From NCBI RefSeq assembly GCF_037975245.1, contig NC_092582.1, positions 22,594,577 to 22,658,576 of the forward strand: a stretch of DNA of 64,000 bases, written 5' to 3'. A program made the translations under genes and the position numbers. The DNA comes from Apostichopus japonicus (taxonomy: Eukaryota > Echinodermata > Holothuroidea > Aspidochirotida > Stichopodidae). Shown one piece after another: positions 903 through 62,142 of the stretch (its first letter is position 1; each line of letters starts with the position of its first letter). Under the pieces are notes generated by a model that saw nothing but the letters and a program-made list of their open reading frames with translations, ran no database searches and had not been told where the DNA came from.

Positions 903-36100
<35,198 letters not shown>

Positions 36101-38061: not shown

Positions 38062-38067
38062 GTTATC
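38062..38067. other. Left target-site duplication of the 24-kb element
   Basis: GTTATC lies directly outside the left TIR and is repeated exactly at 62137-62142 directly outside the right TIR. The next outward base differs on each side, so the duplication is exactly 6 bp. Confidence 0.92.
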
Positions 38068-38573
38068 TATGGAACGCGAAAAGGGCAATCTTATTTCGTT
38101 GTCTAAACTAAGTTTGTTGCTGTCTAAACTAAAGTTGTTGCTGCTGTTTTTACCATGTTGTTGCCTAAACTTACGTTGTTGTCTAAACTTACGTTGTTGC
38201 CTAAACTTACGTTGTTGTCTAAACTTTTGTTGTTGCCTAAACTTCCGTTGTTGCCTGAACTTTTGTTGCTGCCTAAACTTACGATGTTGCCTAAATTTCC
38301 GTTGTTGTCTAAACTTTCGTTGTTGTCTATAAACTTCCGTTGTTGTCTAAACTTTCGTGGTTGTCTAAGCTTCCGTTGTTGTCTAAACTTACGTTGCTGC
38401 CTAAACTTACGTTGTTGTCTAAACTTTCGTTGCTGTCTAAACCTACGTTGCCGTCTAAAGTTGGTTCTGTTGTCTTAACTTAAGTTGTTGTCTAAACCTA
38501 TACGTTGCCGTCTAAAGTTGGTTCCGTTGTCTAAACTTACGTTGTTGCCATCGGCGCTGTTCAACAATTGCTC
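38068..38573 (+). repeat. Left terminal inverted repeat
   Basis: 506 bp. After the 18-bp tip TATGGAACGCGAAAAGGG it consists of about 20 tandem units near 18 bp (TTGCCTAAACTTACGTTG and variants with TTGTCTAAACT, TTCCG, TTTCG, TTTTG), ending with CATCGGCGCTGTTCAACAAT next to TGCTC. It pairs with 62136-61610; positions 38068-38235 are identical to 62136-61969. Weaker similarity continues inward to about 38620 (TTTTCGCTCGAAATTCAAC against TTTTTCGCACGAAATTTAAC). Confidence 0.95.
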
Positions 38574-38688
38574 AACGTGATGTAAATGAAATAACTTTTC
38601 GCTCGAAATTCAACTTGCGCCGCAAATGCTAACTTCTACTATACGCACGTATAACAATTAATATTTACTGAGCCATTAGTCGACAGAC

Positions 38689-41600
38689 ATGGCGGAAATC
38701 GACCAATTTAAGCAATATATTTACTTGGGTTACACGAACAGGAAGATTGCAGAGTACTTGGGATGCTCTGAAAGGACTGTAAAGAGTCGGAGGAAAGAAT
38801 ACAACCTTCGAAACAAAGATGTTCAAAGTGCAGTGCATGGTACGTCTGCCTATTAGTAGTACATTATCTAGGTTGAGAAAAAGAATTACTGTAGGTCTAG
38901 GCTAGGCCTAGTAATATTGCCACATACATACCGTTATCTACCAGTAGGCATGTTATTATTAATAATGACCAGTTGCCAGTCTAGCAAACTCGTCCCCTCG
39001 ATATACAAACCCTGGCAGATTCTCCTCTCTAAATTCCAATCTCGTAGCCCCTTCACAAACTTCCCCCAAAGATCAAGGTCTAGAAACATTTAGCATGCTG
39101 CAATGCATTTCTAAGACTTGTAAGTTGTAAGGCATATATGTAGCAAGAGTAACACATTTTTGGGTGTTACAAAAACGAATGACAATTGCGTTACACATAA
39201 CGAATGACAATATGTTGTACACACTAAAAAATTAGGGTGGGGGTCCTGGTGGAGGGGGCACACCTAGGGAGGGGTTTAAAGCGAGCGGTTTTAGATGCCA
39301 AATGATGCAAACTGCTCCATTTTTTTCACCTACAGTATATTTGTATTCTATTAGCTGTATATTTACAACCTTATCATTTTAGAAACTTAAAAAAAAAGAA
39401 GTGGGGATTCATGTAACAACCCCACTCCACTGTGGCTACAGGCCTGTCTAAGGTAAAACTGTAACTGTTCAAATCCAAAGGAATACGGTTATATCTACAT
39501 TACTACTAGAACTTAAAAGGCTAGGCTATATATGTGGTTGACAGTCAACGTGCACCTCGCAAACTTGCCCTCCACTGTCAGCAAACTCTCCCCTGAGTAT
39601 TAGGTTAAAGTTGTGATTAATTATTTTATATGTTCTAAAGGCAACACAGTCTGTTGAAAAGGTTAAAGGCGAAGTTCCATATGTGGTAATACTTGTATTC
39701 GTGCACTGCAGGGTTATTGAAGGGAAAGAAGTCACACTTGTACTTGAAATAAAGGAGACAGGGCTAGGGTGTGAGCAAGGAATAGACATGATGATGTCAT
39801 TGTCTTAAAATTTGTATACATCCCTTTCCTTAGCTATATTATTTGTCAGTATACACTATTAGTCCATACTGCACATTCTGTAGGACTACTGTAGGATATG
39901 ATAGTTTCCAGATGGGAGAGAATTGAAGAAAAAAAATCATCAATTTTGTATACAATATGGCAGCCTCCATGAATAGACAAGTGGTTCTTTCAAATCCTGT
40001 TCTTAACAAACTATAAAAGAAATTTTCATGGGAATTCCATCACAGTATGAACATTTATTCTCTGAACCAAAGAGTACAAATACGATCACCATGGTTTCAT
40101 TTCATGATGTACATCAGTGTTTAGTGCATCTTGGTACATTACACTAGTGTACTTCTTTTCTTCTTCTTCAATCATTATCATGAAAGTGAAATTATCTATT
40201 TTCTGTTTAGATGCAGAGTTGGATGAGATGGTGAAAGCTGCTGTTGGAAAGAATCCATCCTATGGTGAGAAGATGGTTGCTGGCCTTCTAGCATCAAAGA
40301 ATGTACATGTTCAACGTGATAGGATTAGACAGTCCATTCGCAGAGTTGACCCTGATGGTATGTTGTTAACATAGTGATGAAACAATGTGGAACACAGTGC
40401 TAGTTTGTAAGTAATACATACATGTATAAATAAATAAAATAGAACAACTACTTATCAGGTAACACGACCCCTGCTTACAACAGTTATCAGTACAGTGGTT
40501 TACATCTTAAACATTTTGATATAGTGTTTCATCCCCTCAATTGAGGGAATTATGAGGCAACCTACATGCAAAATGTCTGGAATATTCTAAATAGCTTAAT
40601 CATTCTGAGCCATATACTGTACACCACAAACTATCATGTCAAAATATCACTGCGTACAAATAATGTGCCTACAGATGGATGCATCATCGATCTCCTTTGT
40701 AGAGTTATGAACTCAGTAAGGAAGTACATGTACTGTACGTAACTGTTCCAACTTTATCCGAACTAAAACTCAGGGCACATATCTCTAACAATTTCATACG
40801 GTACTCTCTAACTACTTTAATGAGCCATGTAATTACTTCAGCTCACCCAAGGCAAGCTCTGAAATATACACTATTAAATTCATTACATTTTAAATTGATA
40901 CAGAAGGCAAAGTACTTCACCTGAAGAGTGAGTAATACAATTCACATAGGCCTACGGAACAAATTTGCCTTTGAAAGTATTATTTCAACATGCAAATTTG
41001 GATATACTGTATGTCGGTTGCTGTGACGTTCACCAAGAAAGGTAATACAATTTTAGTTATACAACTGCCCAGAATAGTGAATGTTGCAAATAGATGTTAA
41101 CTTATTATAACCTCCACATATGACCTCCAATGAATTTGTCAGTGCCTGAGTCAATTTTATTCTAACACCTGATCCCCATGTGCAACAGATTGAAGGCAAC
41201 ATCCCTTACATGAGTTACATTTTGAGTTATTGCTGGTTTGGGTCTCTCCTTTATATTGTGTAATTGACAGTTGATATTCTATATTTGTACCAGTTTTTAT
41301 TCCCTTACATCAACTTATGATTGTCAATAATAAAAAATACACAAAATTCATGGGGAAAGGAGCAGTTTGACTGAACATTATGACCTTTCACCATCTATAT
41401 TCATGTGAAGTTATGTATATTGTACTCATACATTCATCAGCGAATGATTGTCACTAACCTTGGTCCTGTCACTGACAGTCTCTTGGAAGAGAAGCAGATT
41501 AAATGATTTTGTATTTTGACCTTTCTTGATGTCCATGATATTCACCTTTCATCCACCTACTAGGTGGATTGGTTGCCCTTCATCAATTGACAACTGCTGT

Positions 41601-44600
41601 CAACAGTGGTCAAAATGAGATGACAAAGTCTTTTGAGGAGAAGTATACATGGAAATGTTAAAGAACTCATATTTTGACCAATCTTGCTCTCAGTTGAATT
41701 TGTGTAGGTCACCTTCTCTGACAAATGACTGTCCACTAGTTTGAAGAACATTCCAAATCCCATTTTAAAGAATCCAGATTCCAGATTTGATGTTTTCTTT
41801 CTTTTGACATCCAGTGATAATATTTAAATGGTATTAAAGTGGGTTGGTTCATGGCTTTTGTGTTATGGCTTTTGCGGCATGTCATATTTCAGTTCCTTAC
41901 TCCTTGAAAGTTTAATTGTCTTAGAACAAAACACCCTTTTCCTTTTAGGAGTGGAGACCAGAAAGAGAGTAGCGCTTCACAGAAGGCAGTACAGTGTTCC
42001 TGGCCCTAACTCACTCTGGCATATTGATGGAAATCATAAGTTAATAAGGTAGGCCTACATCCAAATATACATTTAGGAAGTTGACATAAAGCATACATGC
42101 TTAACATATAATTTCATTGCCTTCTGCATCTTGAGGCCACCCACATGTTAGAAGATGTGTGAAAATGGTGATTTTAAAAAAAAATTCAAGTTCTTGAATA
42201 TTAAGCAACGGCTGATATTGTATGGAGGCAGACACAGTATTTCAATCCTATAACAATCGACAGTAATGATATTATCATATGTGCAGTACAAAAATTGGAT
42301 GCTGTGTGTGTAATATGTGGCAACCACCAGTGGATGCTTTGTTTGACATTGCTATTAATTTCTAAAATAGGACTACTGTACATTAGTACTACTGTACAGT
42401 AGTACTTGAACAGGAATCATCATGGTTGTAATTCATGTTTGTTTTCTAACTTCAAAGATTAAATTTGATAATTAAACCAACTGTTGATCATGCATGCAAT
42501 TTTCATGTTTAATTTTTAAGATGGCGTTATGTAATACATGGGGGCATTGATGGCTACAGCAGAATTCCAGTTTTCTTAAGGTGCTCCACTAACAACAGGG
42601 CGCACACAATGCTTTCTGCATTTAAGGAAGGTGTTTTGCAGTATGGGTTGCCATGGACAGTCAGATCTGACAAGGGTGGTGAGAATACCAGTGTCTGTGC
42701 ATTCATGATGGCACATCCTTTAAGAGGGCCAGGGCGTGGGCACTTCATTACAGGAAGGAGTGTCCACAATCAGAGAATTGAAAGACTTTGGAGAGATATG
42801 TTCACAGTAAGTTTTAAGCTCAACCCACTAATATCACTTAGTGTAAATGGGTTAATGTCTGTCTCTTTGTTATAAAGCCTACTTCTACTACAATTGGTGG
42901 CTGATTTTTCTGAAATTTGCAGTGAAGGTGCCACATTGGGATATAACTTGTTCATGAAAAGATGCTTGGATAAAGGGAAGTGGAAATTTAATGCAATTTC
43001 CATCTTTTTTCAGTTACAGTTCTCAGTCCATCCTTCAATGGAAGCTGGTCACTTCGCCAAACAACCATTTCGCCCAACTTTACCATTTCGCCCAACCAGC
43101 CTGGTCATTTCGCCCAACCAGCCAAGCCTAAAGTAGTGTCATCCTCCCAATATACCCGAAATAACTGCTTAGACTACTATCGATATCGAGCGGACCTCAC
43201 TGTATTTACCTAACACGAAGTAACATAACCCAAAATGAATCAAATCGAAATAGTGAAATAGAAAAAGTAATATTATTCTGACTGAATATGAGTAAAAACA
43301 TGGTTGGGCAAAAAGATCATGCTGGTTGGCCGAAATGACCCGGCTGGTTTGGGGAAATGGCAGTTGGACGAAATTATTGTTGGGGGAAGTGACCAGAAAG
43401 CCCTTCAATACTATTGGTACATCATATGGTAATGAGCTTTATAGTGAACTGGGTAAGGGGTGATACACCTTATGGATGACACATACATACATAAGCGCTT
43501 CCTACACACATAAGCAGTAGACAAGACAGGTACACTTCTACATAATGACATTTTGTTTGCCGTGTCCAAAATGCTTTTACATTTGTGTCTTACTAGGGGC
43601 AGTTATTTGTTTGAATGAGTGTAATTACTTTTACTCAGACCCCCCCCCCCTTTTTTTGTTGTTGTGAGAACTGCGTTTACAAGTAGTTGACAACAAACCT
43701 TAAATCAACTCCACATCACACAGTTAATATGTTTTGTTTCATCTGTTTATCTTTTCTTATCACTCCATGTACAATGTAATGGAAATAAGTAAATAATAAA
43801 AAACTATAAGTGTGAAATAATTGTGCTGCAACTTCAGAGTGTACATTGGGATTTGTATTTCATTCAGGGATGTGCCAGTGTCTACTACAAACTGTTTACA
43901 AAGATGGAGGATGAAAACATTCTGGATGTTACAAATGAAATTGACCTTGCTGCCCTCCATCATGTGTTCTTGTCAATCATCAATAACCACCTGGATATTT
44001 TTCAACAGAGTTATCTTCATCACAAACTAAGAACAGAACATAACAAAACTCCTCTTCAGCTTTGGCATTCTGCCATAGGTTATGGTTTTCCTATGGACTT
44101 CATCACTGAGGTAATTAATACTAGAAACAGCAATTTGCATTTCTACAGAGCATTGCACTATTTGCCAGTGTAGTTCAGTGTCAATATTGTGATAATTTTC
44201 TTGATTTTGTCCCTTTATACAATTGATAATGCCATCTTTTAAGTTATTGTTTTGTGTTGGTAGGAGGGATGGAACATTCTCACAACTATTAATGCCAAAT
44301 CAAATACCACTCAGTTTAAGTAACATGGCTTCAACACCTCACAAATCCTAATAACCATGAAAGGTTAATTCAAGACAGAATTTTCTGTTCCAAAATTGAT
44401 AATGTGATAACAAACCGTTGTTTGTTTCTGTCATAGGTTCTTCACTTGTGGGATAAGGTTTGTTTACTAAAATGTTAAATTCCCCTTCATTGATTCCAAT
44501 GCAAACAACAGTCTTGCATTGCATAAGTAATGACATTGCATAAGTTATTTAATCAGAATTATACTAGTAAAAAGTTGTTAGCAAAGTGAAAGAATCATAT

Positions 44601-45487
44601 CTATAGCTTAATGTCCTTAACATTGTAATTGCACACTTTGACTCCAACTGACCTAGCATTTGTCACATCGAGTTATGTATACAACACAAGGGTTGTCATG
44701 GTAACAAATTAGGTTATACAATGGAAGGCCTGCTTTGACTTGACCTCAAAACATCTTCATGGGCCTTTTCTTGGGTTAACTATTTGGGTTTTTTATATTC
44801 AACTTGAAACTTTGAAATTTTGTCATACTGGGCTATCAACGACAGAATAGCCCCTCAATGCACAGCATTATTGCAGTTCATCACTTAAGGAATATCCATT
44901 GTTATTGTAAACCTAGAACAATTGTAATGCAATATGGCTGTGACTATTGCTTTCATAATCCTTCAATCTGTTTCATTGTAATTATTCTGTGGGTTATTTC
45001 ATCAAAACTTATGAATATAATCCAAATTAGAACCCCTCCCCCCATTCTATATTCTCCCATAACTGTGGCTGATGCTCACTCATAATGTATGGGATCATTG
45101 AAATGATTAACAGAATTTACAGGACCTGCCTTGCTGTTAAGATTGAGAACTCAATTGAAGATGTAACAATGAAGACCAAAGAGACTACACAACAATATCT
45201 TTAGTATATCCTATTTTGCAACATTGCCACTGAAAGCAATATAACAATTTTACAGTATTGATATTATTATTTTTATGCAGGCAGAGTTTCAACAGTACAT
45301 GCCAGAGCAGGCAGGGAATGAAACCGCAGCTGTCAACATCCCTGGAGGGATACTACTGAATGAGGATCAGCTTTTAGCTCTCAATGATAATTTCAGTTTA
45401 GATGTTGCTAGCCTTCAAGTTGAAGAAGACCAAATCAGTTACTTCAGTGCTGCTAAGGAATTTATCTACAACCTCATTTACCATTAA
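38689..45487 (+). CDS. DDE integrase (rve-type) transposase of the 24-kb element, 6 exons, 377 aa
   Basis: Exons 38689-38839, 40211-40357, 41949-42048, 42521-42806, 43868-44110 and 45281-45487 all have GT-AG borders, agree in phase, and sum to 1134 nt (377 codons plus TAA). Residues 1-50 form a helix-turn-helix ([20 protein letters not shown]), a likely DNA-binding domain; residues 51-99 resemble the second helical domain of related integrases. The RNase-H-fold catalytic core follows: D126 in [10 protein letters not shown]183 in RSDKGGEN, E220 in [13 protein letters not shown] (D-56-D-36-E). All three catalytic residues are present. Similar intron-bearing integrase-core proteins are known from fish, cnidarians and other animals. 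It should cut and join the TIR ends. The ATG lies 115 bp inside the left TIR. Intron 4 holds a MITE. Assignment as transposase is strong; activity is inferred. Confidence 0.92.
41949..42806 (+). other. Integrase catalytic-core exons 3 and 4
   Basis: Exon 3 (41949-42048) ends in the first catalytic Asp block, [11 protein letters not shown]. Exon 4 (42521-42806) carries [19 protein letters not shown], the second Asp ([10 protein letters not shown]) and the catalytic Glu ([11 protein letters not shown]). The codon for R133 is split between them (AG + A). Spacing between the second Asp and the Glu is 36 residues, close to the D35E of retroviral integrases. Confidence 0.93.
43040..43401. mobile_element. 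362-bp fold-back MITE inside integrase intron 4
   Basis: Flanked by a perfect 8-bp direct repeat CCTTCAAT (43032-43039 and 43402-43409). The ends are inverted: GGAAGCTGGTCACTTC on the left and GCTTTCTGGTCACTTC as reverse complement of the right. The inverted arms extend about 100 bp and contain repeated ATTTCGCCCAAC motifs. The core has no coding potential. An 8-bp duplication fits hAT-like mobilisation. Confidence 0.85.
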
Positions 45488-46390
45488 GTTAAACCAGTTT
45501 AGCAGAAGTAAACTAAGCACATTCAAGTTGAAACAAGCTATATTATAATCAGACCATACAGTAAACTGTTACTATTACTACACTTCCCACATTTATTCTT
45601 GACATTGTCAGGGAATGTTAAAAAAAAGGTCCTGTTTGGGTAAATGGAGAAATGGTTTGGGGAAATGTTTCCTAACTTTATTACAAAACAATATGAAAGC
45701 AAAAATGAATTCAGGCAAATCATATGTAGTTTACTATATTTAAGTCACCCGTTGAATGACCTTACATGGAAACTTGACCTCTACTGAAAAATTGTTACTC
45801 TAAACCCTTTAACTTTAGCAAAACTTAAAAGACCTTGTTTTTTCCTAAAGATCCCGACCAAAAGGCATATGTGAAAGGTTCCAAAATATGTGGAAACATA
45901 TGCCCAAGGTCATACAAGTTCAACACAGAATGTAATTTGCATTATAAATTGGCATATAGGAAATGTAAGTGCAGGTTTAACTTTTAGTACAAAATCTTTA
46001 AAGAAGTAAATTTTGGTCTCACCTAAAATCGCACTTTGATATACATTTTAGACCACATCAAACCATTTTGTAGGAAAACAATTACTGGAATGTAGCTCTA
46101 AACCATCCTTTGACAAAGAGTAAAAAAAAACTTATGTTACCCAGCCAAAATCTCTAACAATGTTCAAAAGCTTAAAAACTATGAAAATATATGCCCAAGA
46201 GGCCAAGATACTACCTCTCCAACCTAGAAAAGATTTTGCACCATATAATGACTTAGTCAGCAAATATTAGTCCAGGCTTGTTCAGGCACCGCCACGGGCG
46301 ACTGTACTTTATGCGTACTCTACAAGAGACACAAATGACGCTTTAATGAATATAGTTATTTGTATGTAAATATTTTTTTGTATGGATTGT

Positions 46391-46396
46391 AATAAA
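46391..46396 (+). promoter_or_regulatory. Possible poly(A) signal for the integrase gene
   Basis: AATAAA about 900 bp after the integrase stop, in an AT-rich stretch followed by TG-containing sequence. I noticed no closer canonical hexamer, but the motif is common in AT-rich DNA. Confidence 0.3.
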
Positions 46397-48092
46397 TGAA
46401 TACCTGTCATATTGCTTTCGATTAATCTCTTGTTCTCATAATTTTTTTACCTTTTTGTTAAAGAATCATTCATCACTGGTTTCTTTATATAAATGTCTAC
46501 TGACTGTACTTTGGTAAAGAGAAAAACTGATCCAACAACTTTTCAGTAAAGCCCAATGATTAAACAGTGTAATATATATATACCTTTACTTTCCAATACC
46601 TTTTCCTTAACTAAATATTTATGACACCTTTATACAAAAGAAATACAAAGAACTAAAACAGAAGTTGCATTACAATTCATCTGTGTAATGCTTCTAGTTC
46701 ACAGAACAGGTGAAATTCTATTGACTGGGAAAACGCCCCCTATGTTTAATTGTTAGCACATGTTGGTAAACCAAACCAGCTTGCAAGGAAACACAAGAAT
46801 TTATCACCTCAAACTTTGTTAATAATACAAGCATGGAATTATATCATGCTAAGAAACTACATTTTTGTACAAAACTGATATAACTGTGCACCTGGTAAAA
46901 TAATGTATTATTGCATTAATTGATAGTAGTGACTTATAATATAACCATTTCACTTCAGTAAACCATGATACAATTCCACCCCCCCCCCCCCCATTACCAA
47001 AAGAGTGGGTTGTGACAGTCAAATGATTTCATTTAGACTTAGTTATTTGTAGAAAGACTAATGTAAGGCTTGATACTAAAGATAAAGTAAACTGGATCGT
47101 CACTGTAGCCCAAGCTCGTTTAATAGAAAGTCATTGGTATTAACGTTTGCCCAAACACTCAGCGATAATAGTACTTTGTGTAAATACTGTATGGCAAGCA
47201 GGTATATTTTATTTTCTATTCATATCACTGAGAACAATTGGACGGATATCTGAAATAAACTCTTTATGAAAATCAAAGGTTTGACTGTTCAAGGTTTGAT
47301 ATGTGCACATTTTTTCCATCTGACAAAATTTTTCCTGATACATTGAATGTAGTGAGATAAGATAAAATCAGAACACAATAGAACAAAGTTGTTTGTTCTT
47401 ATCCTCTGCTTTTAGTAGTACTATGGATGTGCTTAAAGTTCTCAATAATGTATATAAAAAATTAATGAAAGATCTGTATAAAACATGTTTAGGCTTAAGT
47501 ATTTGTGCTTTAATTTATTACATGTGAAACCAGAAAGTAAGTCGGCAACTAGTAGTACCTATTCTAGTTTTAAACATTAATTGCAAAATGTTAGTCTAGT
47601 AGCCTTATTACACCATGGAACACTTAGCACAAATACAACACATGCCTTGAATGTTACTGATAAACACAATGTTACTGATAGGCACTAATAAATATGGCAA
47701 GCATAGGCAACTTCATGAAGGCAGCCGATTGAGTTGGTGTTAAATCAGAAAGTAAACCAATTCTACCCAGTTTTGTTCAACATGAGAGCAGCATGTCATA
47801 CTAATAAAGACATTTCATAGTTTTTGTTTGACTTATTGAATGTTAATTGGCCATTATTTAAGGATATGTATATATTCTGTTCAACTCTTTCAAGATCCGG
47901 CTTTGAAAATGGTAATGACCAACTCAACTAGCTGCATAACAATACTATGATGCTGGCTGGACGTGAAAAAATACATGAATATATAATATTTGTCTGTTGA
48001 TACACTTTGTACTCTCAAATGTATAAGAAATATATGGAAATAAATAGAAATATGTTAAGATTGAAAGAATTAAGGGATGTAGATATCTTCTT

Positions 48093-48098
48093 TTTATT
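48093..48098 (-). promoter_or_regulatory. Possible poly(A) signal for the HECT gene
   Basis: AATAAA on the minus strand (TTTATT on plus), about 480 bp past the HECT stop codon. It is a weak prediction in AT-rich sequence. Confidence 0.3.
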
Positions 48099-48577
48099 TT
48101 TACATGGCAAGATGTTTTTATGGCAAGTGACTAGTTTGGAATGTAAGAAATGTAAAGTACCATTTTAGCCCAATATGGATGTTGGGCATTGTTTTGTGTT
48201 TACTTGATGTCATGCACACAATTAAATATGATGAAACTTATATGGAGATTGTTCGTCAATCAACATTAATCCTTGATTATGACATCATAATTGTAGATCA
48301 GACTAGATCAACCAAAGATTTAATATTACTGTAAACCTTAGATTGTTATAAAGGGCATGGGAATATATCATAAAGATTGTTTTTGTGTGCATGTTTTAAA
48401 TTAAAAAAGTCTATTAAAACTAGTTTATGTTAATTAAAGTTACTTGTAGAAGAATGAGATTGTGGATCACAATGAGAGTGAGAGTGTGAAAGTGAGAGGC
48501 AAATGAAGAAAATATGCAACAGTTGTGTTGCCAAACCCATTATAGCAGAAATAAAAGTGAAACAATAGCAGCAAAAG

Positions 48578-51500
48578 TTACTGCTTTCCAAACCCAGGGG
48601 AACATAGAATTGCTTCTGTCATCAATCGGGCAAATTTGTCTGCATCTGTTATTCCCCTTGGTAGATGCAATTCCAAGCCACACGTTGATGATGTGGGATA
48701 TGGCTTGATGCCTTCGACCGGAGTATAAAAACTGATATCAATTTGTTTTTCAAACCCAATAGGTGGTATGGAGTCTGCACCGGTACAAAATCTTAGGATA
48801 TGATGCATCCCAACAACAACACTTTCATCGTCTTCTTCTGCCGACATGCTGCACTCACCAGCTACAGAAATGCAAAGATATGGACAATAAAGTGTTAATA
48901 AAGGTAGCACCAGCTTCAGGCCTTCGACAACCAGGCCAGGGAATGGGCATGTGCATTTTCCCCCCAAAAAATTCATAATAATGTTCTTCAAAATAAAGCA
49001 AATAATCTTTCAATAGCAAATTAAAACAACCAGTAAGAAATTGTAGGAATGCACAATGGTTTCTCGTGTCATGGTTATTACAATTATTGAACAGTGACCA
49101 GAGCCCAACTTTTAAAATGGTGTCTTCTGTCTGCAAATGCTCATTCTGTAAGTGTCATCAGCTGATAATGATAATTTACCTGGAATGTTCACACATTTAC
49201 TCTTCATAAATATACATAATAATTTGACCCTGACCCTAAATCTGTCCTATCCTAATATTTGAACATTACAATACATATCACATCCATGGTTTAATGCCTT
49301 TTTCCTACATGTTGATAAGCAGAAAATGGTTTAAAAGCAATTCTTAGGTTTCTTGACCTTTGACATCATAAATCATGCTGGCAAGAGTTTACATGGTCTG
49401 GCATCTACCCACCAAGTTTGAACACGACCGGTCTTAGAGTGTAGGAGTTTGCGACATTTGGTTTTGCTCACACACTTCCTCACATTTCTGATGTGGGGTG
49501 AAGTACAATATGTCATCTCCCTATACATTACATGTAGGGAGATGCGATAAAAAAACATTGCTCATCAATTGAGGTGATATCACACCTGCTTGCTTCAAGC
49601 TCAATTTGGGTAGCCGACGTGGTAATTTTATCTGCAAATATCTCAAGAACCATACAAATGAATTGAATACAAATTTCCTCAGAATGCCTGAGTTATGTTC
49701 CTCTTATACTTTATAGATTTTGGTTTAAGCCCTGCACTCAAATAAATATGCATTTTCTCCAATTTAACATACAGTAATCGTGCATGCAAGGTATGCGTCA
49801 CACACACACTGACCCTGACTACATCTATACATGTAACCTTCCACAATTAATGCAGAAGCATACACCTACCTTGGCATTTCTGAAGGAATTGCTCCCAACA
49901 GAACACAGTGTCCCCCTCTTGGTCTTCCTTTACAATGTCATCTGACCAATTGACTTTGAATAATTTTTTTAAAGAGGTAAAAGTGAGCTCTTTAGCAGTT
50001 GATGTTAGTAGTGGCTTGAATGGCATGGGTTCTTCAGCAATCATTTGCCAAAACCCACCAACACTGTCCATCCCTTCTTGGAATTCTTCCACTTCAGCCT
50101 TACATCTAAAGTGAAAAATGATATACTATGTAGTTACATCACCATACAAAGTATAAACTAAATAGGACAAACGGTTGCAGAGATATTGATATTAAAATAA
50201 TGTTACGGTAAGCCCGCCCAATCATTAATATGCAAGCCCCACTAAAAATGATAGAGATCATCTGCTTACCACAACCGACATACCAAGTATGACATCAATC
50301 ACATATTTCCTTCTAAAGACACTGTGTACAAGCTAGAGCATCGCATATAGACACAAGCAAGCAAGCAAGCACCCACACGGATGCATAGGTTCGAATGGAT
50401 GCCAAAGCATCAGAACAAAAAGATCCATGAGATATGCCCAGCATACCGTTTAATGGTTGTGAGTAATACTATTTACTTTATCTTTAATGTTTTCAGCTTG
50501 TTACACAGTGTGAAATGTATTTATACTTAGAGAACTGTTGTCATTAACTTACAACCGTGGATGTAACTATTGATTTGATATATATCCTTACCTGTAAAAT
50601 ACATGCTGTTTGACCAGCGCCTTGATGGTGTCTTCTTTGGATTCAATAGACAAAGAATAGATCTTACTGTATCCACTGTTGGCTGCCCAATCACTCACCG
50701 CTGCCACTGCTGGGTCAATCATACTCTCAGATGATATACCTTCAATCTACATGGGTCAATAAATAATCATGCATGGACAGTCTGTTTTATGTTACACAAA
50801 ATAAAGGTAGTCAAATTTAACACATTAAATGCATGGAAACCACTTTTGAATTCTGATCAATGTCTGATGTATTTGCATGTAATTTTAAAATACTCCTTGA
50901 ACATTTAATCAACTGACATACACAACAGTTTTAACTTTTGGGCTTGTTGTGCTCTGTATGCGCAATTAGCATAGTAATTATGCAAATGTGTCATAATGTA
51001 GTTGTACTCAGATTTCAAGTCTCACTGAAGATTCTGCTTACCAACTTCTCTTCAGAAATATATTCATATCATTTATTTGGAAGCATGAAAATGTGATCAA
51101 GACAATTATATTACCTGATATGGTAACTTTTTACAGAAAACAAAACATTGTTCTAAAGATAGAGTTAGCAACATTTTATAAACCTCAAAACTTCAATAAT
51201 ATTTATAAAATGTTTAGTTTTGAAAATGGAAAAGTAACATATATCTGCACAGCTTACAGAGTAAACACTACAGCAACATGTTCAAAACTGGTTACTTATT
51301 AGTGAATAAGTTGACATTTTCTTTGGCACAATGGTAGTTATCAACGTTTAATTATTTATATCACTATAGAATAGAATCAAAGAAAGTACCATCTTTAAAT
51401 GACACAGTACATGAATGTCTGTAACATCTGATATCTCAATTTGTTCCTCTGGCTTGCCGACCTTCCCGACCATAAGATTATACAATCCTGGGTGCAGCAT

Positions 51501-52632
51501 AGGGAACCCAGGGCCACCATGAAGAACACTCCAAGCAATGAATTGCCCTGCCAGCTTATACTTCCCCATTTCCAACAAATCAATGTCATGGGAGAAGTAA
51601 AGCTTTCCAGGCTTTCCCTCAAAAATGCTGAGGGATGCCAACTGTTGTGTCAACAATCTGTAAAATATAAAATTAAGACCACCAAGACTGATTATGAACA
51701 CTTTGTTACAAAGTAAGATGTACAAAAGATGCTAAAGTGCACTTGGTCTATAATGTACCAAATTGATGCACTATTTACTGCTTGATTTGAGAAACAGGAT
51801 GGCAAAATAAGTATGTTAGACTACAATAGCATCTACAGGTTTCAGTAACAAAACAAAAGCTCATTTCAGGACGAAGATGTCACACGCTATTGATAATTAT
51901 GACATCTGCTACAAAACTCCATAGGCACACTAGATAAACACAATGCAAAAATGCATTGAGCTTGTCCTTTTTAGCAAATTATCTGGCATGGGGATAATAA
52001 TATTCCAACAATTCCATACCGAAACTTCAGAACTTTCCATAGACATGATTCTAAGATATTTTCACCCTTTAACCTTTAGTGAAAAACTTATGGTACGTAA
52101 TGTACATTATTATTATTGTCAACATCATCACAAAGTGGTTATGGTTTGACATCATATGATTTTTCACCTCATCCAAACACAGTTAACATGCCATATAATT
52201 AGAAAAATACCAGGAACAAGCTTAAAGATGAAATCATTTAACCACACAATTATGAGGTAAGGAATAGTAAGTGATTGGAAGATTCAAGTTTGAGATTCAT
52301 AAACATTCATGTAATTTTGACCTCTAGCAAAGAGCTTTTATACTAATCATTCAAACAACAAAGATTAGACAGAGAAAGAGAAAATGTGTTAAAACACCAA
52401 AACATACCTAAAAAACTCTCGTTTTGGCCCACCAAGGTCGACTGCATCTTCACCAGAGAAATGGATGACTGGATCTTTGTAAAAGGAAAATTCTGTCTGT
52501 TTTCTAATTACATCAGTGGCAGTTTTGATAACTTTCTTTCTACGAATGACTAAGTCCACTGACTGCGCCTCTCGTAGACCACGGTAGGTCACCAGCTTAC
52601 TCTGCATTTGAGCCACTAGAGCTGTTTCATCA
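48578..52632 (-). other. HECT catalytic domain exons 10-14
   Basis: The N-lobe includes DLVIRRKKVIKTATDVIRKQ and VDLGGPKREFFR (the family's conserved D-x-GGP-x-REFF block), then GKPGKLYFS and LHGGPGFPMLHPGLYNLMVG. The C-lobe includes LRFCTGADSIPPIGF and the catalytic YPTSSTC at C714, then LPRGITDADKFARLM and AILCSPGFG. Every signature expected in an active HECT is present. Several codons are split across junctions and restore conserved residues (R434 in REFFR, A654), supporting the splice model. Confidence 0.95.
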
Positions 52633-55600
52633 CTGGGAAATGACACAAAGAGAAAAACCAACTTTGCTAAAATGATTGAATTCCCTGCTGTTGCTCTAAT
52701 ATCAACCAACTGGCCTCCCTAATCTTATAAGTTATAAACAGAGAGCATGCTAATGATCATCACCCTGTAGTCCCTGCACAGCAATGTATCTGCCCATGCC
52801 AGCATGGTTTATATCTTATTTCAATATGCTATGTTCAAAGCCCCCAGCTGATGCACGCCTCTCATGATGACATCACAATTCATTTTTCCTCGTTGACAAT
52901 TGTGGAAAAATCCCTGATAGGCTGCATTCCATCCAAAAGAGGATGGCTAAATACACCATGTCCATGAGATGGAATAGGAAGACAGATACGTAACATTTTC
53001 CTTTCCGCATGTTTTGCGCATACAATAATTTCTATGCTAAGTCCCTCATAATTGGCACTGTGTGACCATGGATGGATAAAGGAGAGGTCATCTAACTCTC
53101 AGCATATAATCCAATTGACAGGCATTAGTTGAGAAAGAGAAGACAAAGGAAGAGCAGCTTGCATGGGAATGATTAGTGAATGTAAATTCAGTATGTTTAC
53201 ATGGTGTTAAGGTAAATATGCTTAATGCTTACTGATCTTTGTCCAAATCTCGAAGACTCTCCTCCAAGACTAACTTCATGTCATCATCAGTGTCCGACTC
53301 TGATGGGGAAGGGCTTGCCGGTTCTATTAGGTTGATGTAGTCTTGGACACACCTACATGAATTAAAAAGACATGCTAACATTTGCACTATCAAATACTGA
53401 ATGTTCTTACAACACTGATAAAGAATTTGTTTTTCAAATTTCACACCCTTGCACAATTTTCCTGCATGTTTCACATATGAAATGATCATTTTCAATGAGA
53501 ACTGTTTCATATGTGAAATGAACAAATCATATGTAAAATGGCTATTTTCATACAAGAAATGTCCTAAGCCTCACACGAGGAACATCATTTCACTGAGATT
53601 TACCCATTTCCAGTTTCCTATGTGGAGTTTGTATTTCATATGAGGAAGGTAAAATTCTCATATAGGAATTCTAGTTTCATATGAGGGATGCATTCCAATG
53701 TACTCTGCCAAATTCACTGATCAGAGTATGGCATGCAGTTTGTATATTAGTTGACAAGAATATTTTTAATAGAACTGAAAGGTATCCCTACCATCAGTAT
53801 GAATATTACAGGTGAATAATATATAAGGAATCATACAATACAAGTAACCCAATGTACAGGAAGCAGCATGTATCACAAAAATTTCTGATATTACAAGAAT
53901 TTGCTAAAAGTTTAACAAAACCCAACAATAATCACTATGTACTCTCTATAGGGGAGTTTTGTACTTCAAATCGAATATAAGTACAAGAAGAAATTTCTGT
54001 ACTTGTGTTAAGCTTAACAACTTGTATTGATGCAGACTCAACCATATACACATACTCTTGCCCAGAACTAATGCAGTACTCTGATTGTACTCATCTCACC
54101 AGATCCCACATATCAGGGATTTGAGCAAAACTTAGGCTATTCCTATTACTTGTAATGTAATATCTATGGTAAATGTCAGGCATTGCACCTTATTCCATTC
54201 AATGAGAATTTAGGTTTATATACTGGAGTACCGGTAGTCTTAAACTTTTAATGCAATAATCAACAAGGCATGCATTAAGTACTGTTCATAGCTACAAAAT
54301 GACTATAACTTCATACCACCACTCCTATTTTTCCACCATGGCATGCATGGTCACTGTTGAATTTGGGCAATAGTTCTCAACACAATATTTTCATGTCCCT
54401 TTCCCTCCCATCCAGTATGGCTACTGACTAGCTTACCTGTCAGAAACATGGAAGTGGCTTTCATTCTGTATTCCAGATGTTGATGGTGTATCATTGCCAA
54501 TTCTGATATGAAAGCAGGGTTATAACAGGAAATTAAGTTCAACCAGAATTTTGGACAAAAAATTCGCCCTGGATGTTTGCTTAATTCACTAATTTGTGTA
54601 AATATGGATATGAAAGAGTGTGTACATGAAGGACTGGCCGACCACATAATGCTTTCTAGAATTTAGTACACAATAAAATCCCAGATTGGCATAGAAAGAG
54701 TTTCAGAACTTGAATGGGCAGGGTGGGCATCAGAAGGGGCAAAGTGGGCTGTGAAGCAGTATAGCTATGGCACTTAAAGCTTAAAGTTGAATGCTTACAG
54801 CCTTTCTCAAGGCCGATGCCCTCTCACACGACTTTACAAGTTAAGCCCTGTCATTGGTAACTTGTCACACCCACACACCAAAGTGTGCACAATTCAATCA
54901 ATCTCTCTTGGGGACTTCCAGGGGACTTCCAATAGGGTGCAGCCACAAACGGGCAACACCCAACTATATCTACAAGTTAATTACCTTGCAAGTCCCCATT
55001 TACACACTTTGGTGAATAGAAGCAATGGAGATAATGTGCCTTGCCCAAGGATACAACCGAATGATCTTGCCAGGTATCGAACATCAATCCTTAATCACAA
55101 GTCCACTGCCTTAACCATTTGACCACAAGCCCACCCCCCCCCCCCACACCCCACTTACTAACTTACTGGTGAACATTTGACTTAAAGCATACTGAGATGT
55201 ATTTATTAGCTTATAGTAGGTCAAGATTCAACAAATCACAATTGAAACGCACGATTTCCTTGAAGCATTAGAGAGATAATAATAAGAGAAAGCTGGTCAT
55301 GATTATGATAAGCAAGAAGAACATTTTCATAACAATTATAAAGAACATATTACTTACATATCAGGAGCACAAAACTGGGGTCCAGTCTGTATTTCTGATG
55401 CAGCTGGTTCTGTTTGTCTATCATTCCCATCTCTAATTTGAAATAGAACGAAAATAACCAGAAAGCTATGATCTGTGACTTAAAAAATTATGTCATCAGT
55501 TATCTGATTGATAAGGTATATATAACCAAGTTAACTTTGCCAACCAAGAAAGTCACACCAAGCAATCCTGCATGAATGTCCATCAATCTGTAGTGTTTCT

Positions 55601-58600
55601 GATTCATATTAAGGCATCCTTACATGCTGTCAAAGATGTTCCTATGCCATGTTCTACTAAGCCTTAAGTTGTTTACATAGCAAAATATTTTGGATAATTG
55701 AAATAGAACTGACATTTTATTACCAAAAGAAAATAAGAGTAAGAGGATCTCAGAACTCTTTTACTCAAGACAGTCAAGAACTTTATGCAATCTAAATTGG
55801 AACACTGTTTACCTAAAAAGAAATTTAACAATTGGTCTTGTTATTCATCTCTTACATATTTTCTTACATTTTTTTCCTACATGTTGTTACAGACGTACAA
55901 AATATATGTTGTACAAATGAGGTAACCATTATTACAAGTTTTACAATGTTAGTCCAAATATAGTATATTTTTATCCATAATACAACCCAGCATTGAACAC
56001 ATATATATTTGTCTTAACTGTTTCACCCTAGAATAATCAGTGTTGAAAAGGGAATGTACACTCTAATGCATCCAATCATTTTGTACACTACACATTCACT
56101 ACATCTCCACACTGATTAATTTATACATAGCGAAGCTTTAATTGTGAACGCTGTGACAAACTGACTAACCTTTCAACAGAGCAACTTTGAGTCTCTGTTA
56201 CAACCCCATGAGCGGAAGGTCTTGTGTCATCATGCTCGTCTCTAAATAAAGTAAACATAACAGGGATGTAATGATATACTATGTTTTTTATGATACTTCC
56301 ACAGTATTTGTATTAAAACCAGATATGCAAGATGCAGTACATCAAAACTTGGGTAAAAAGTCATTCAGAGCTTGTATCACCTATAACAAACCTTTCTTGT
56401 GTCTGTCTCCCACACTGAGTTACATGTTTCTTCAGTTTTGTTTGGGCAAAAAACATCTGGCATTGATTGCATTCAATCATCAGTTCATCTTCCTCAGTGA
56501 CTTCATCAACCTTAGCATAATAAAAATGAAAGAAAAATATTACCTTAACATATAACTAGCATGGAGTTGTAGTAAAACATATCAGCAACTGTAGTCCTTC
56601 TTAAATAAGCAACTACTGGGTTCATACTTGTTTATCTTAAGTTTAGCAATATAGTGTTGTCAAAAGTATAAAGCTAAAGAAAAAGGTGGGGGAAGAAAAT
56701 TGTACACAGAATAATACAGAACTGTTCAAATTGTTTTAACTATGTATCACAAACTATGAAAAAGAAAAAAGAAGCATGCCGACACTAACTATAGGCCAAT
56801 ACCACATAATGCTGTAGAGAAAGTGGATTCATATACCTAAATTTGATTTTCCAAAAACAATGTCTCTTGAATGGAACTACCAAAAACAAGTCACCATGAA
56901 AAAAGCTAACCTAAGCCAAGAAGGTAAAGAAAGAGGGAATTCAGTAGGTAAAATATATTAATTTCATGTGTCAGCTGAGTTCTAAAAAATCAAATAATGT
57001 AAGAAACAAACATGAGAGGACCAAGCCCTGAAAATCATGGCTATCAATGGCAATCTCTCATATTGTAACGCAATCATATGCTTTAAATGTGGCTTCAGAG
57101 CAACCCAGTGGACAATAAAAGCAATAGTAAAACAGTAAATATATAAATAGCTGAGCAAAATATGGTCCCTTTTTCTCACCGTCATGTTTGAAAGATCCAA
57201 TTCAGCCTGTATTGGTCTCAAATAAATCCGAGCTTGTTTCATTACAAACTTCAGGTTTGCTGCAGAGTAACCTCCTCCAGCAGGCAAAGAAATGCTCTCT
57301 AGCAGCTTTGTTTGTGCAGTACTTCGGAGATATTCGTAACCTCCTGCATCTTTTAGTTTGGGGAATTCCTCCATTAGTCTTGCTTGCAATTCCACTGCAG
57401 TTATAGAAGATGAGACCGAAATTTTTTTTTCTCCAAGTCCAGCCGCTTGCAAAATCTTTTGCTGGAATTTTGAGGGGATTATTTTCTGTAATAACGAAAA
57501 ATGTACACATTAAACAGCCTGTAATAAAATGTGCAAAACATCAAAGAGTAATTTTCCATCGGTCCTGTACTACATTTTCTAGATCATTTCATAACGAGAT
57601 CAGCACTCAATGCAGATATAACAGGAGATACCCTGTCTTTTTAATATCTGCACTCTTGATGTCCCTCAATCAACACCTTCTACAGTAAAAAGTATGTCTG
57701 TACAGTTTGTGCATTGAACAGTACATAGAAGTGCATATTTATTTATTGACAAATTCAGTTGCAGAAATGGATAGTTTGACTGTATGCAGGGTTAGTGAAT
57801 TTGGATACACTGCAACCTACTACATGTATAGTGTAGAAGTAATGATATGGAAATTCCCTTTTTCTTGTGAATTTGTTATTAGATGTAACATGAGAAAGTA
57901 CCATCTCCTCTAAAACAGAACTTTACATACAAATAATGTTGCTGTGCATTGCAATGGGGAAATTATGTTTTACTTGTTTTAATGTTTTCAGTAATTATCA
58001 TACTTGCATGTTATTTCTAGTAGACAAACAGACCCCCCAAAAAAATCCAAATTTGTGCTAAACTGAACAATTTGAGATGTAGTTGATATAAAGCAACCAT
58101 GCTTCTTCAACTTATATGGTTACAATTAGCGTTGTAAAACAACATTTTCCCAGTCTGATCATGATTATTATTCTAACTGTGCACTGTTCAATTCACTGTT
58201 TGTGTTAATATGTATGGACATAATGAACAGTCTGACAGAGTGGTGCAACTTTTCTTAATTGTTGAATACCATACCTTTCTAATTTCTGTACATTTTATTC
58301 CAGTGAATGTTTCTTTCATATGTATTGTACAGCTCACTCAAATGATCATCACTACAATCACAGGAATCAAGAAATATCTGTCCAGTGTGTGTGTTCATTG
58401 ATACATTTCTAGAACACTGTGATATAGTCAATCCTCACTGCAGATGAAATCTTGGAAATTTCTAATAAATTTCAATTAGTTTTGGCCTGTTTTTGTAAAT
58501 ATTATTAGCCTGATGCATACAGTAGTCAATTGGAACTTTGCCGATGTACAAAAGAGGTCGTCTTTGACAGCCAATAACTAAAAAATATATGTTGGAAAAA

Positions 58601-61439
58601 ATCTGATTATTTTTTCTGGAAGAGATATAGTACTACCCTGTTGGTACACAAAATTTCAGGAGGGTGTTTAGCCTTATTTGGAAATGAAAAATCCTCCTTT
58701 ACAAGAAAATGTTTTTGTCTCTTTTGATGTTCCACATGTTTTGAGCCTGGGTATTGTACTTCAAGGTCATTCCATTCAATACTGTGCAGATTGCAATGAG
58801 ATATTGAAACAAATACTATTTACAAAGTACTTCTCTGCTTCTGGTTAAATTCATTTAATTCAAAGACTTTACTATATATTAAAAATGAATGTCAACTGGT
58901 ACATACATGTACAGTGTGTACAGTACATTTATGAACAGTGTGTACTTGTACAGTGTGTATTACTGCTACAGTAGGTTTAAGCATAAAGTAGTACTGTTTT
59001 TGGAGAGGATGCAGCAACAGCCATTTTTGATTTGACATGGAATGACCCTATTTACACAAAATGTAGTATGAGGGAAGGGTCCTGCTCGTCACTTTAAACA
59101 GTAATATTCCCTGAAAATCACAAAATTAAAGTAATGTTAACTCATTTGATACTTACTGTAGATGGCAGAGCTAGACACATCACTGTCAGCGACAACAATC
59201 GTTTCCTCCTTTGATTAGGAGCGGGCACACTGTATGGCCGAAATAACCGACTGGTTTCTCTTTGAGCTACCATGTTAGAAAAAAATGTTAATGATGAGGT
59301 TGCAATACAGGTAATTTGTAATATTTGAAGATGACATGTACAGTATATATGTGTAACATTTGAGAATTAATACTCAATGAAGCAAGTAGACTCCCATGCA
59401 GTATTTCTGAAATGAATGATTGACAGGCTCATAAATAGCCATTGTATTACTCACAGAAAAAGTGATGAGGTCAATTTAAAAAGTAAGTTAAAGTCATGGT
59501 GATACATTTCCTTTTTAACAAACATTACTTGATCAGATGGAAGTATTTGTAGTGTGATTACAATTTCATGAGAATGTAAACAAGGGTATCTGAGTACGAG
59601 TACCTACCTTCTTTCCTGAGTACACAATTTTGCATTAGCACTATAAATTTGCTTATACAGTAACTTTCAAAAATTAAGAGTACTAGGACAAATCCATTCT
59701 CACGAGTGCAGGCAATTGTGCCACAATATGAGTAGGATCACTGCAAGTCTGTTTAATCAAATAGTGTTAACATGTCAAAACAAATAAACACAAAGAAAAT
59801 GTTACCATCTGGACCATATGTTCCCCCATACAATACAAGTGTTTACATTCCAAAAACCAAACCTTGCTGTTAAAAAGCTAGCATATGTACACGTTTGCAT
59901 TTGAAGCAAATAAAGCTACTGTAGTATTTTGTACACTGTAAAAATTGAAAAAAAAAACAAAGGCCTACCAGCTCTCTCTCTATTGTCTCCTTCAACATTC
60001 AATGCTGATGCTCGACATCTGCTTCTTAAGATGGCTTGTCTCCCTATCCCTTCAACTCCCAGCCTATCAAGCTGATCACCTGACATCAATTGGACAGCTC
60101 CTGTAGTAACCTGTTGCAATATATACATAAGGAATAATTAGCAATAAATCTTTTATGTTCTGACACCACTATCAGTAATCTAATTAATTAAATCTTTTCA
60201 GCATGTTATGCCAATACTGACATGTTGATTCTCATTGAAACAGGCATAGTTGCTTGACCTGTTTCTATTAAAACAATTCGTACTAAATCTAGTAAATACC
60301 ATAAAACTTAAAGTTTTGCTACGTTAATCCAGGTATTTAATGCATGGTAGATGCTAGTACTGGAAACTCTTGCAAACACCGGCTTGTTTCCTTCTGGGCC
60401 TCTAAAAAAAACTTTGAAGACAATGAATATAACACTAATTGCTTAAGGATATTCACAACAGACCATCCTAACAATTAGGTGTAGCCTTATCTGGCCATAT
60501 TCCTACAGACACACTTAACCTGCTGCCTCTCAAACTTAAGTAGGTTGTTCTTGACAGCTAGCCTACAGTGTATATTTGAAGCAAAGTTTGAATATGTAGT
60601 ATTTATCCAGGGGGCTGCTGTCACTAGATTTGGCTATGGTCCCTTTACATCAAGCATCATGATAAACCTCATTAAGTTTATTAAGTGTGATGTGTAAAGT
60701 TTAAGTTTTATCCACCACATTGTGTCTCGAAGTTTGATGAGGACACATTCATGTAGCCTACACCATGATAGAGATGAACTTCTCAATCTCAAATCAAATT
60801 TACTTTCAATCTGAGCCACGAGGCTCTTATTGGTTACGACTGGGGGCCCAGAAGATTTAATCACATGAAAATAGACAAAGTTTTTGATGGATGTATGACG
60901 TTTTAACGTGGCCAAGATTGACAAATCAGTATGGGGCACATCTCGTGAGGTAAACCTGGGGGTCCCATAATACTTAATTGGGGGCCAAAAATGCATTTAT
61001 TAACATGAAGAGAGACAAAAATGAAACTTACTCAGATGATTACAGTAGTATTTTTAGTAATGTAGGCCTGGCCTTTAGTACTTCTACTGGTAGTACTTCT
61101 TAGAATACTGAAACACCAATGACAGCAGCCCCAAAGGGCCAACCCAAAATGGCATTAGGCCTAATCATTTTGAACAGAGATGGGGATTTTTAGTTTTGTA
61201 ATCGAACTAAAGCCTAGGGGAACTACTGGGAGTAGGACTAATTCCGCCTATCATAGCCCAAGCTAATCAGGGCGCACTTTGGGGACTACAATTAATTAAT
61301 GTGAATGATAAGGCACTAGCCTAGGCTAGGCCTAGGCCATTTAATCCAATCACTTTGGTAACTAAAGGCTTACCCCTTCACGATCGAAGTTGTCGACCAC
61401 TCGCTGTGGGTAGTCTAGACTGATTAAAATTCTTTCCAT
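48578..61439 (-). CDS. HECT E3 ubiquitin ligase (SAM, UBZ-like, UIM-like, HECT) carried by the transposon, 747 aa
   Basis: Fourteen exons: 61439-61374, 60110-59969, 59266-59157, 57485-57180, 56510-56392, 56241-56170, 55432-55358, 54502-54437, 53352-53233, 52632-52408, 51657-51390, 50746-50592, 50105-49870, 48861-48578. All borders are GT-AG, phases agree, total 2244 nt (747 codons plus TAA). Domains: SAM-like 1-60; a conserved domain about 90-200; C2HC finger with C222, C225, H237, C241; acidic linker of related short exons; UIM-like motif about 341-355 (DDDMKLVLEESLRD); HECT about 380-747 with catalytic C714 (YPTSSTCGLELHLPR) and the C-terminal SPGFG motif. It resembles the G2E3-like proteins expanded in fish and other animals. 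It should transfer ubiquitin to substrates by a Cys thioester; substrate unknown. The ATG lies about 170 bp inside the right TIR, mirroring the integrase. The frame is undamaged. Confidence 0.93.
50135..50280 (+). repeat. Dispersed repeat, copy 2
   Basis: The diverged partner of 25313-25470 (see that entry), here in the HECT intron between exons 13 and 12. It shows that interspersed repeats have colonised the large element's introns. Confidence 0.6.
52880..53030 (+). mobile_element. Possible LINE reverse-transcriptase C-terminal fragment
   Basis: Plus-strand translation around 52896-52990 reads DNCGKIPDRLHSIQKRMAKY then TMSMRWNRKTDT before a stop. The LHSIQKRMAKY piece resembles the LQ.LQNRAARxI region that follows the reverse transcriptase in many non-LTR retrotransposons. 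It is short and unsupported elsewhere, so it may be chance. It lies in the HECT intron between exons 10 and 9. Confidence 0.25.
54790..55135 (-). mobile_element. tRNA-derived SINE in a HECT intron
   Basis: Read on the minus strand from about 55132, it begins GGGCTTGTGGTCAAATGGTT, with an A-box-like TGGTCAAATGG and, about 40 bp on, a B-box-like TGTTCGATACC; together they form a tRNA-like head. A body follows with TCCTTGGGCAAGGCACATTA, a core common in SINEs of marine invertebrates and fish. It is inserted between HECT exons 7 and 8. The plus-strand frame across it is not a gene. Confidence 0.8.
56392..61439 (-). other. N-terminal exons 1-5 of the HECT protein: SAM-like, conserved domain, UBZ-like finger
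   Basis: Exon 1 (ERILISLDYPQRVVDNFDRE) and exon 2 (LMSGDQLDRLGVEGIGRQAI) together read as a SAM-like helical bundle. Exons 3-4 carry the block KFQQKILQAAGLGEKKISVS ... LQARLMEEFPKLKDAGGYEY ... YLRPIQAELDLS, which is the N-terminal signature of G2E3-like proteins in fish; I cannot name its fold, possibly ubiquitin-like. Exon 5 holds IECNQCQMFFAQTKLKKHVT followed by QC, a C-x2-C-x11-H-x3-C finger resembling the UBZ4 type of RAD18. Confidence 0.8.
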
Positions 61440-61609
61440 TATTGAGTCTGGTAGTAAGACTAAGAAAAGTATGAGTACCAATATGGCTCGTGGGACCCGG
61501 GTGTGATAGTGGTAGTCTGAGGCCTATATAGTACATAACAGCATTCTCATGCGCTGGTGTTAAATTTCGTGCGAAAAATTGAAACGATCTATGTTTACGT
61601 CACGTGGTC

Positions 61610-62136
61610 GAGCAATTGTTGAACAGCGCCGATGGCAACAACGTAAGTTTAGACAGCGACGTAAGTTTAGACAACGAAAGTTTAGACAACGGAAGTTTAG
61701 ATAGCAACGGAAGTTTAGATATCAACGAAAGTTAAGGCAACGACGTAATTTTGAGCATCAACGTGAATTTAGTCATCAACGTAATTTTAGACATCAACGT
61801 GAGTTCAGACATCAACGTGAATTTAGACACCAACATGAGTTCAGACATCAACGTGAGTTTAGACAGCGACGTAAGTTTAGACAACGAAAGTTTAGACATA
61901 AATGTAATTTTAGGCAGCAACGAAAGTTTAGACAACAACGTAAGTTTAGGCAACAACGTAAGTTTAGACAACAACAAAAGTTTAGACAACAACGTAAGTT
62001 TAGGCAACAACGTAAGTTTAGACAACAACGTAAGTTTAGGCAACAACATGGTAAAAACAGCAGCAACAACTTTAGTTTAGACAGCAACAAACTTAGTTTA
62101 GACAACGAAATAAGATTGCCCTTTTCGCGTTCCATA
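61610..62136 (-). repeat. Right terminal inverted repeat
   Basis: 527 bp, the reverse complement of the left TIR. It contains about 20 units near 18 bp (plus-strand CAACAACGTAAGTTTAGG and variants such as CATCAACGTGAATTTAGA). The outermost 168 bp (61969-62136) are identical to the left end. The inner part has its own unit variants (CATCAACGTGA family, 61750-61860) absent from the left TIR, so the arrays have changed independently by unit gain and loss. Confidence 0.95.
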
Positions 62137-62142
62137 GTTATC
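62137..62142. other. Right target-site duplication of the 24-kb element
   Basis: GTTATC directly after the right TIR tip CGCGTTCCATA, matching 38062-38067. The predicted empty site reads GGATAGTTGTTATCATGCTA. Confidence 0.92.

Follow-up and report, generated by a model that had tools for sequence, protein, structure and literature searches.

The window analyzed here, a 64,000-nucleotide stretch of the 671.6-Mb Apostichopus japonicus assembly (C22:22594577-22658576), contains a DNA transposon of 24,069 bp at 38068-62136. It carries two intact, convergent genes, one for a DDE transposase and one for a HECT ubiquitin ligase. On our reading, the HECT gene is not a chance neighbor but an accessory gene that belongs to the element and has long been kept by a set of related transposon families. 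Taken as a whole, the element is very probably a long, structurally intact IS3EU/GingerRoot DNA transposon with HECT as an integral accessory gene. An earlier note, made from the sequence alone, had proposed a self-mobilizing element whose ligase is part of its mobility or host-interaction machinery. This proposal held up in part, in that the element is mobile and the ligase travels with it: new 6-bp target site duplications (TSDs) and empty sites were observed elsewhere in the genome, and both genes recur together.

The element begins and ends with TATGG..CCATA, and a perfect direct repeat of GTTATC, read directly from the flanks, abuts it at 38062-38067 and 62137-62142. End-to-end comparison of the terminal inverted repeats (TIRs) showed that they are identical over exactly the outer 168 bp, so both the repeat and the identical length given in the earlier note were correct. 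The left TIR (38068-38576, plus strand) consists of this outer part, an 18-bp tandem array, and an inner block common to both arms (38525-38576 and 61607-61658). The left array, at 38157-38547 on the plus strand, has 21.4 copies of the unit GTTGTTGTCTAAACTTAC; in the right TIR (61607-62136, minus strand) the array lies at 61636-62047 on the minus strand and has 23.4 copies. Both arrays consist of a diverged unit. With outer part, arrays, and inner block, the whole inverted repeat comes to approximately 510 to 530 bp per side, and an arm pair of 263 nt is 94% complementary. Within the window, the 22-bp terminus (allowing up to three mismatches) is present only at the two element ends, and it was found in none of 100 shuffles.

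The transposase gene occupies 38689-45487 on the plus strand and has six exons (38689-38839, 40211-40357, 41949-42048, 42521-42806, 43868-44110, and 45281-45487), whose 377-amino-acid translation is exactly the public A. japonicus protein P0007. Pfam identified the integrase core PF24764 (E=1.4e-81), while the rve profile scored below its cut-off; the N terminus is helix-turn-helix-like, with an HTH_23 match (E=4.4e-5) slightly below its cut-off. The catalytic residues D126, D183, and E220 are invariant among 11 aligned transposases. No HHCC set was found upstream of D126, where there are only C26 and four histidines. Scans of viral contigs with P0007, A2, and A1 as queries gave no confirmed relative. 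A prokaryote scan found a transposase 48 to 52% identical to that of the element on three contigs (L001-L003) of one sponge-symbiont metagenome-assembled genome; there was no HECT match on these three contigs, which are probably sponge host DNA.

The ligase gene lies at 48578-61439 on the minus strand. Its 14 exons (61439-61374, 60110-59969, 59266-59157, 57485-57180, 56510-56392, 56241-56170, 55432-55358, 54502-54437, 53352-53233, 52632-52408, 51657-51390, 50746-50592, 50105-49870, and 48861-48578) encode 747 amino acids and match the public A. japonicus protein P0001 letter for letter. The protein has a SAM_2 match at its N terminus and, identified by eye, a Cys-rich finger; its HECT domain (PF00632, E=5.6e-9) includes Cys714 near the C terminus, which is invariant in all six aligned ligases. 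By its domain and catalytic cysteine, the predicted ligase falls in the HECT E3 family. Residues 386-746 match the HECT domain of yeast Rsp5 by sequence (E=1.6e-6). Predicted structures of the two element proteins were weak (mean pLDDT of 51.5 and 54.8); Foldseek of the ligase model also returned Rsp5 as the top match (E=2.2e-7), with TM-scores of just 0.23/0.42, and we give this result low weight. Thus, the 6 and 14 exons in intact frames, with catalytic residues present, that the earlier note had reported are reproduced exactly by the two public proteins and are conserved at the catalytic positions in the alignments. A further public protein, P0129, has a homeodomain-like segment fused to ligase exons of an element copy and is probably an annotation chimera.

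The element holds 135 open reading frames (ORFs) of at least 50 amino acids. Among the 19 ORFs run against Pfam were 10 non-exon ORFs of the element, and none of these 10 had a match. Of the claim that there are exactly two genes, the two intact genes therefore stand, and with 19 of 135 ORFs scanned it is likely that they are the only ones.

Comparison of the terminal 162 bp of the element with the assembly gave 40 primary matches, with scoring limited to the 40 best among 631 first-look candidates; five of these matches, four on C7 and one on C16 (19.6 Mb), fall outside the copy survey. Other copies were found with different 6-bp TSDs, as anticipated, and the copies examined that carry both genes number five with the window copy (C22, C5, C12, and two on C17). 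The second full-length copy, on C5, is inverted, spans 24,870 bp, has both genes in the same layout, and is flanked by the TSD GTGACA. It is 98.43% identical to the window copy over aligned bases outside the coding sequence and TIRs. A 610-bp deletion extends into exon 6 of its transposase gene, and exon 5 of its ligase gene is interrupted by a 1,061-bp insertion. The copies on C12 (30.3 Mb) and C17 (23.5 and 27.4 Mb) each keep a single TIR end together with degraded portions of the two genes. In the C12 copy (L023+L032+L033, positions 18999-19847), a ligase exon contains a 47-bp unit repeated in tandem about 18 times.

We then counted TSDs over distinct two-ended insertions, leaving aside the one-ended or complex loci (L021-L023, L025, L026, L028/L051, L031, and L047). 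At C10 (9.64 Mb), which has two possible right ends, the outer, TSD-giving one was counted, and C7 was counted once because its copies occupy one insertion site. A perfect 6-bp TSD was found in 9 of 13 insertions and a match at five of six bases in 2 more; the chance of at least nine perfect TSDs among 13 is approximately 2e-30. The ends also occur without the two genes, which the earlier note had named as evidence against its reading. However, they do so as short internal-deletion derivatives and as elements like miniature inverted-repeat transposable elements (187 to 202 bp and about 750 to 920 bp), as is normal for a DNA transposon. The derivatives on C4 and C6 (16.4 Mb) have a common internal deletion junction (element ~830/22762) but different TSDs and therefore moved in trans. 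On C7, 11 two-ended copies occupy one insertion site, 10 with a perfect TSD and 1 with five of six bases. These copies (L039-L050) represent a 0.75- to 0.92-kb nonautonomous insertion amplified on one chromosome along with a surrounding repeat, of which uninserted copies are also present.

Empty sites were found for two insertions. For C4, 38 of 40 scored joined-flank matches span the junction, the best, those on C20 and C12, at 99% over 200/200 bases; for C7, 4 of 40 do so, with 94% over 183 bases in the top match. The same search for the window's own site, whose empty form the earlier note had proposed to look for in other individuals, returned the two flanks only and no empty copy in this assembly, as expected because its sequence is unique. 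These traces give direct genomic support for mobility and show transposition by a DDE enzyme with a 6-bp stagger.

We asked how regularly HECT and transposase genes occur together in this genome. The query for HECT loci was the ligase P0002, which shares about 50% identity with P0001. The 57 matches, with 57 of 220 candidates scored, were grouped by eye into 18 loci, with types taken from the same search. Seven lone N-terminal-fragment matches (C8 at 7.6 and 38.0 Mb, C20, C17 at 16.13 and 3.94 Mb, C15, and C19) were omitted as repeats lying close to the end of the element. For transposase loci, the query P0011 gave 126 matches, with 124 of 210 candidates scored, in 79 loci. We found a related transposase within 15 kb of 12 of the 18 HECT loci and within 40 kb of 13, and all 13 pairs are convergent. 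When all 18 HECT loci were placed at random on the same contigs (5000 trials; lengths of C8 and C23 approximate), the mean was 0.24 and the maximum 3 paired. The window element's family accounts for five HECT loci, all paired; outside it, 7 of 13 are paired within 15 kb and 8 of 13 within 40 kb. HECT exons at paired loci are 44 to 99% identical to P0002 (lowest at C13), and because they diverge down to 44%, the pairing is old. A second family, on C6 (12.57-12.60 Mb), has a HECT about 50% identical to that of the window and ends in TATGGAACGCCAAAAGGGCAA.. at both sides, a terminus that differs by one base from the first 21 bases of the window element. There is a strong excess on C17, which makes up ~37 of 672 Mb: it holds 34 of the 79 loci found for the transposase and 7 of the 18 found for HECT.

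We estimated dN/dS (nonsynonymous relative to synonymous change) for 10 copy pairs from exon-bounded codons, with at least 60% identity per exon match and 95% intervals; the pairs are not independent, having copies in common, and the estimates also include neutral decay of dead copies. For the ligase, the window copy gave 0.38 (0.18-0.90; 734 codons) with C5, 0.59 (0.41-0.89) with C12, and 0.18 (0.11-0.30; 292 codons) with C17 at 27.4 Mb, and the interval was below 1 in 6 of the 10 pairs. For the transposase, in which changes were few, it was below 1 in one pair, C22 and C12, at 0.45 (0.23-0.90). These ratios argue for past constraint on the ligase, short of proof. Between the window copy and the C17 27.4-Mb copy (L022, L036-L038), dS is 0.30 for the ligase and 0.07 for the transposase; because the two differ, the latter copy may be chimeric or gene-converted.

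Several observations weigh against our reading of the element. Within 40 kb of five of the 18 HECT loci (C17 22.07 Mb, C8 15.37 Mb, C16 26.5 Mb, C7 14.25 Mb, and C17 18.86 Mb) there is no scored transposase, and 66 of the 79 transposase loci (by subtraction, an upper bound) lack a scored HECT within that distance. Since so many lack one, HECT is not universal and goes with only part of the superfamily in this genome. The number of pairs also exceeds that of independent cases, because loci of one family are not independent of each other. The second-family copy on C6 has no matching TSD, with three of six bases alike at either possible right end. The TSD is absent at 2 of the 13 two-ended insertions (C14 and C11 20.5 Mb), and one locus left out of that tally, L026, is two-ended but complex. 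All four other gene-bearing copies examined (C5, C12, and two on C17) are damaged. Ligase dN/dS is inseparable from 1 in 4 of the 10 pairs, which involve decayed copies and few changes; it was 0.79 (0.47-1.45) between the window copy and C17 at 23.5 Mb and 1.19 between C5 and that copy. Transposase dN/dS is inseparable from 1 in 9 of 10 pairs. Finally, the assignment to IS3EU rests on published feature descriptions rather than on a transposase phylogeny with Repbase IS3EU.

Some of these observations would suit other explanations. If an ancestral element had captured a host ligase once, its descendants might carry HECT as a passenger without benefit. The many transposase loci without a scored HECT and the four ligase pairs inseparable from 1 are consistent with this, as is the annotation of HECT relatives in Holothuria and Dysidea as "G2/M phase-specific E3 ubiquitin-protein ligase." However, the ligase is retained in the same convergent layout at paired loci that have diverged to 44% exon identity, the catalytic cysteine is present in all six aligned ligases, and six of the ten dN/dS intervals lie below 1. 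We therefore regard a mere passenger as improbable. A dispersed family of host HECT genes, near which IS3EU elements insert, is far less probable. The five HECT loci without a scored transposase within 40 kb speak for it, but all 13 nearby pairs are convergent, and two full-length copies with different TSDs hold both genes inside the same TIRs with the TSD outside. The C5 copy already disfavors such an origin.

The earlier note had also pointed to a resemblance to Polintons. Polintons/Mavericks are marked by a protein-primed DNA polymerase B, a packaging ATPase, and capsid genes. Pfam matched none of these in either spliced protein or in the 19 ORFs scanned, in agreement with the note, which had seen no such genes. 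A Polinton relative stripped of its replication and capsid genes would share the 6-bp TSD, long TIRs, integrase-type enzyme, and similar size; part of the hallmark gene set is given in PMC5753468. The likeness is superficial: the TATGG..CCATA termini differ, the transposase core matches PF24764, with rve below its cut-off, and the convergent two-gene layout recurs. We rejected a Polinton origin, which is extremely unlikely, on the termini, the transposase type, and the hallmark genes not found in the ORFs tested; the termini, TSD, and transposase fit IS3EU/GingerRoot instead.

With the element read as an IS3EU transposon that keeps its ligase, a mechanism can be suggested. The subterminal 18-bp repeats probably mediate the action of the DDE transposase on the TATGG..CCATA ends, and insertion takes place with a 6-bp stagger. 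The ligase may be catalytically active and beneficial to the element. Its most likely action would be to ubiquitinate a host factor involved in silencing or restricting the element, a role that we favor tentatively, and slightly less than its alternatives combined. Most of the remaining probability falls to regulation of the transposase or transpososome or to regulation of the host cell cycle, and control of transposase turnover is another alternative. Counter-defense fits best because the ligase is kept with the element, convergent with and separate from the transposase rather than fused to it, and because fungal relatives have a different enzyme to which a role against silencing is ascribed. 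A broader proposal, which we think rather unlikely as a whole, is that HECT-bearing IS3EU elements form an ancient lineage widespread in animals, with a ligase dedicated to counter-defense through removal of a host silencing factor, and that many animal genes named "G2/M phase-specific E3 ubiquitin-protein ligase-like" are transposon genes.

The surroundings of the element include WD40 pieces and the second half of a RING finger at 858-21281 on the minus strand, which we take to resemble COP1. The first RING half was not found in the window by a simple motif search, and the element may lie in or near the 5' part of this gene. ORFs at 33083-34999 on the plus strand presumably resemble a hAT/ZBED-type transposase-derived protein; Pfam gave no significant match for 34496-34999. 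At 15968-16998 on the plus strand, a minisatellite has three overlapping open frames (341, 161, and 229 amino acids) that are repeat coded and not a gene.

Among known systems, the ligase resembles cellular HECT ligases (Rsp5/NEDD4 type, AREL1, and G2E3-like) in its HECT domain, through residues 386-746 in the case of Rsp5. NEDD4-type HECT ligases have C2/WW N-terminal domains. In contrast, the ligase described here has a SAM-like N terminus and a Cys-rich finger and lies inside a transposon. Among the papers listed by searches of the open-access literature, we recognized none that describes HECT in IS3EU; Repbase, Dfam, and the original GingerRoot paper lie beyond that scope. HECT is mentioned nowhere in the main texts of PMC10045372, PMC12730594, and PMC6431247, and PMC6027436 deals, where HECT is concerned, with a mimivirus protein. 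The new part is thus the ligase, for which a prior description in Repbase, Dfam, or the GingerRoot paper is possible. If it is retained across diverged families, an animal DNA transposon would have in it a new means of acting on its host, and part of what is counted as expansion of host HECT gene families may consist of selfish genes. This raises the question of what the ligase ubiquitinates, with a silencing factor possibly among its targets.

Ginger1 elements also have an integrase-type transposase, but they are described in PMC10045372 with a 4-bp TSD and an HHCC domain, whereas the TSD here is 6 bp and no HHCC lies upstream of D126. As defined in PMC10045372 and PMC12730594, IS3EU elements have TA..TA termini (TAYGG..CCRTA in fungal families) and a 6-bp TSD, and the former describes a transposase without HHCC whose first catalytic D lies 100 to 300 residues from the N terminus. 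The window element agrees in its TATGG..CCATA termini, its 6-bp TSD (GTTATC here and perfect in 9 of 13 distinct insertions), its TIR of more than 30 bp, and its DDE integrase-like transposase with D126/D183/E220, no upstream HHCC, and D126 within that range. It differs in its size of 24 kb, its 18 introns, and its minisatellite-like TIR interior. The reported fungal families carry alpha-kinase and TET/JBP genes where this element carries a HECT E3 ligase; in TET-bearing ones, the alpha-kinase gene lies on the strand opposite the transposase, as HECT does here (PMC12730594). The TET/JBP enzyme is thought, in the same paper, to aid escape from host silencing. The transposon-borne E3 ligase would thus parallel the DNA-demethylating enzymes of fungal IS3EU elements, with a DNA-methylation dioxygenase in fungi and a ubiquitin ligase in this animal.

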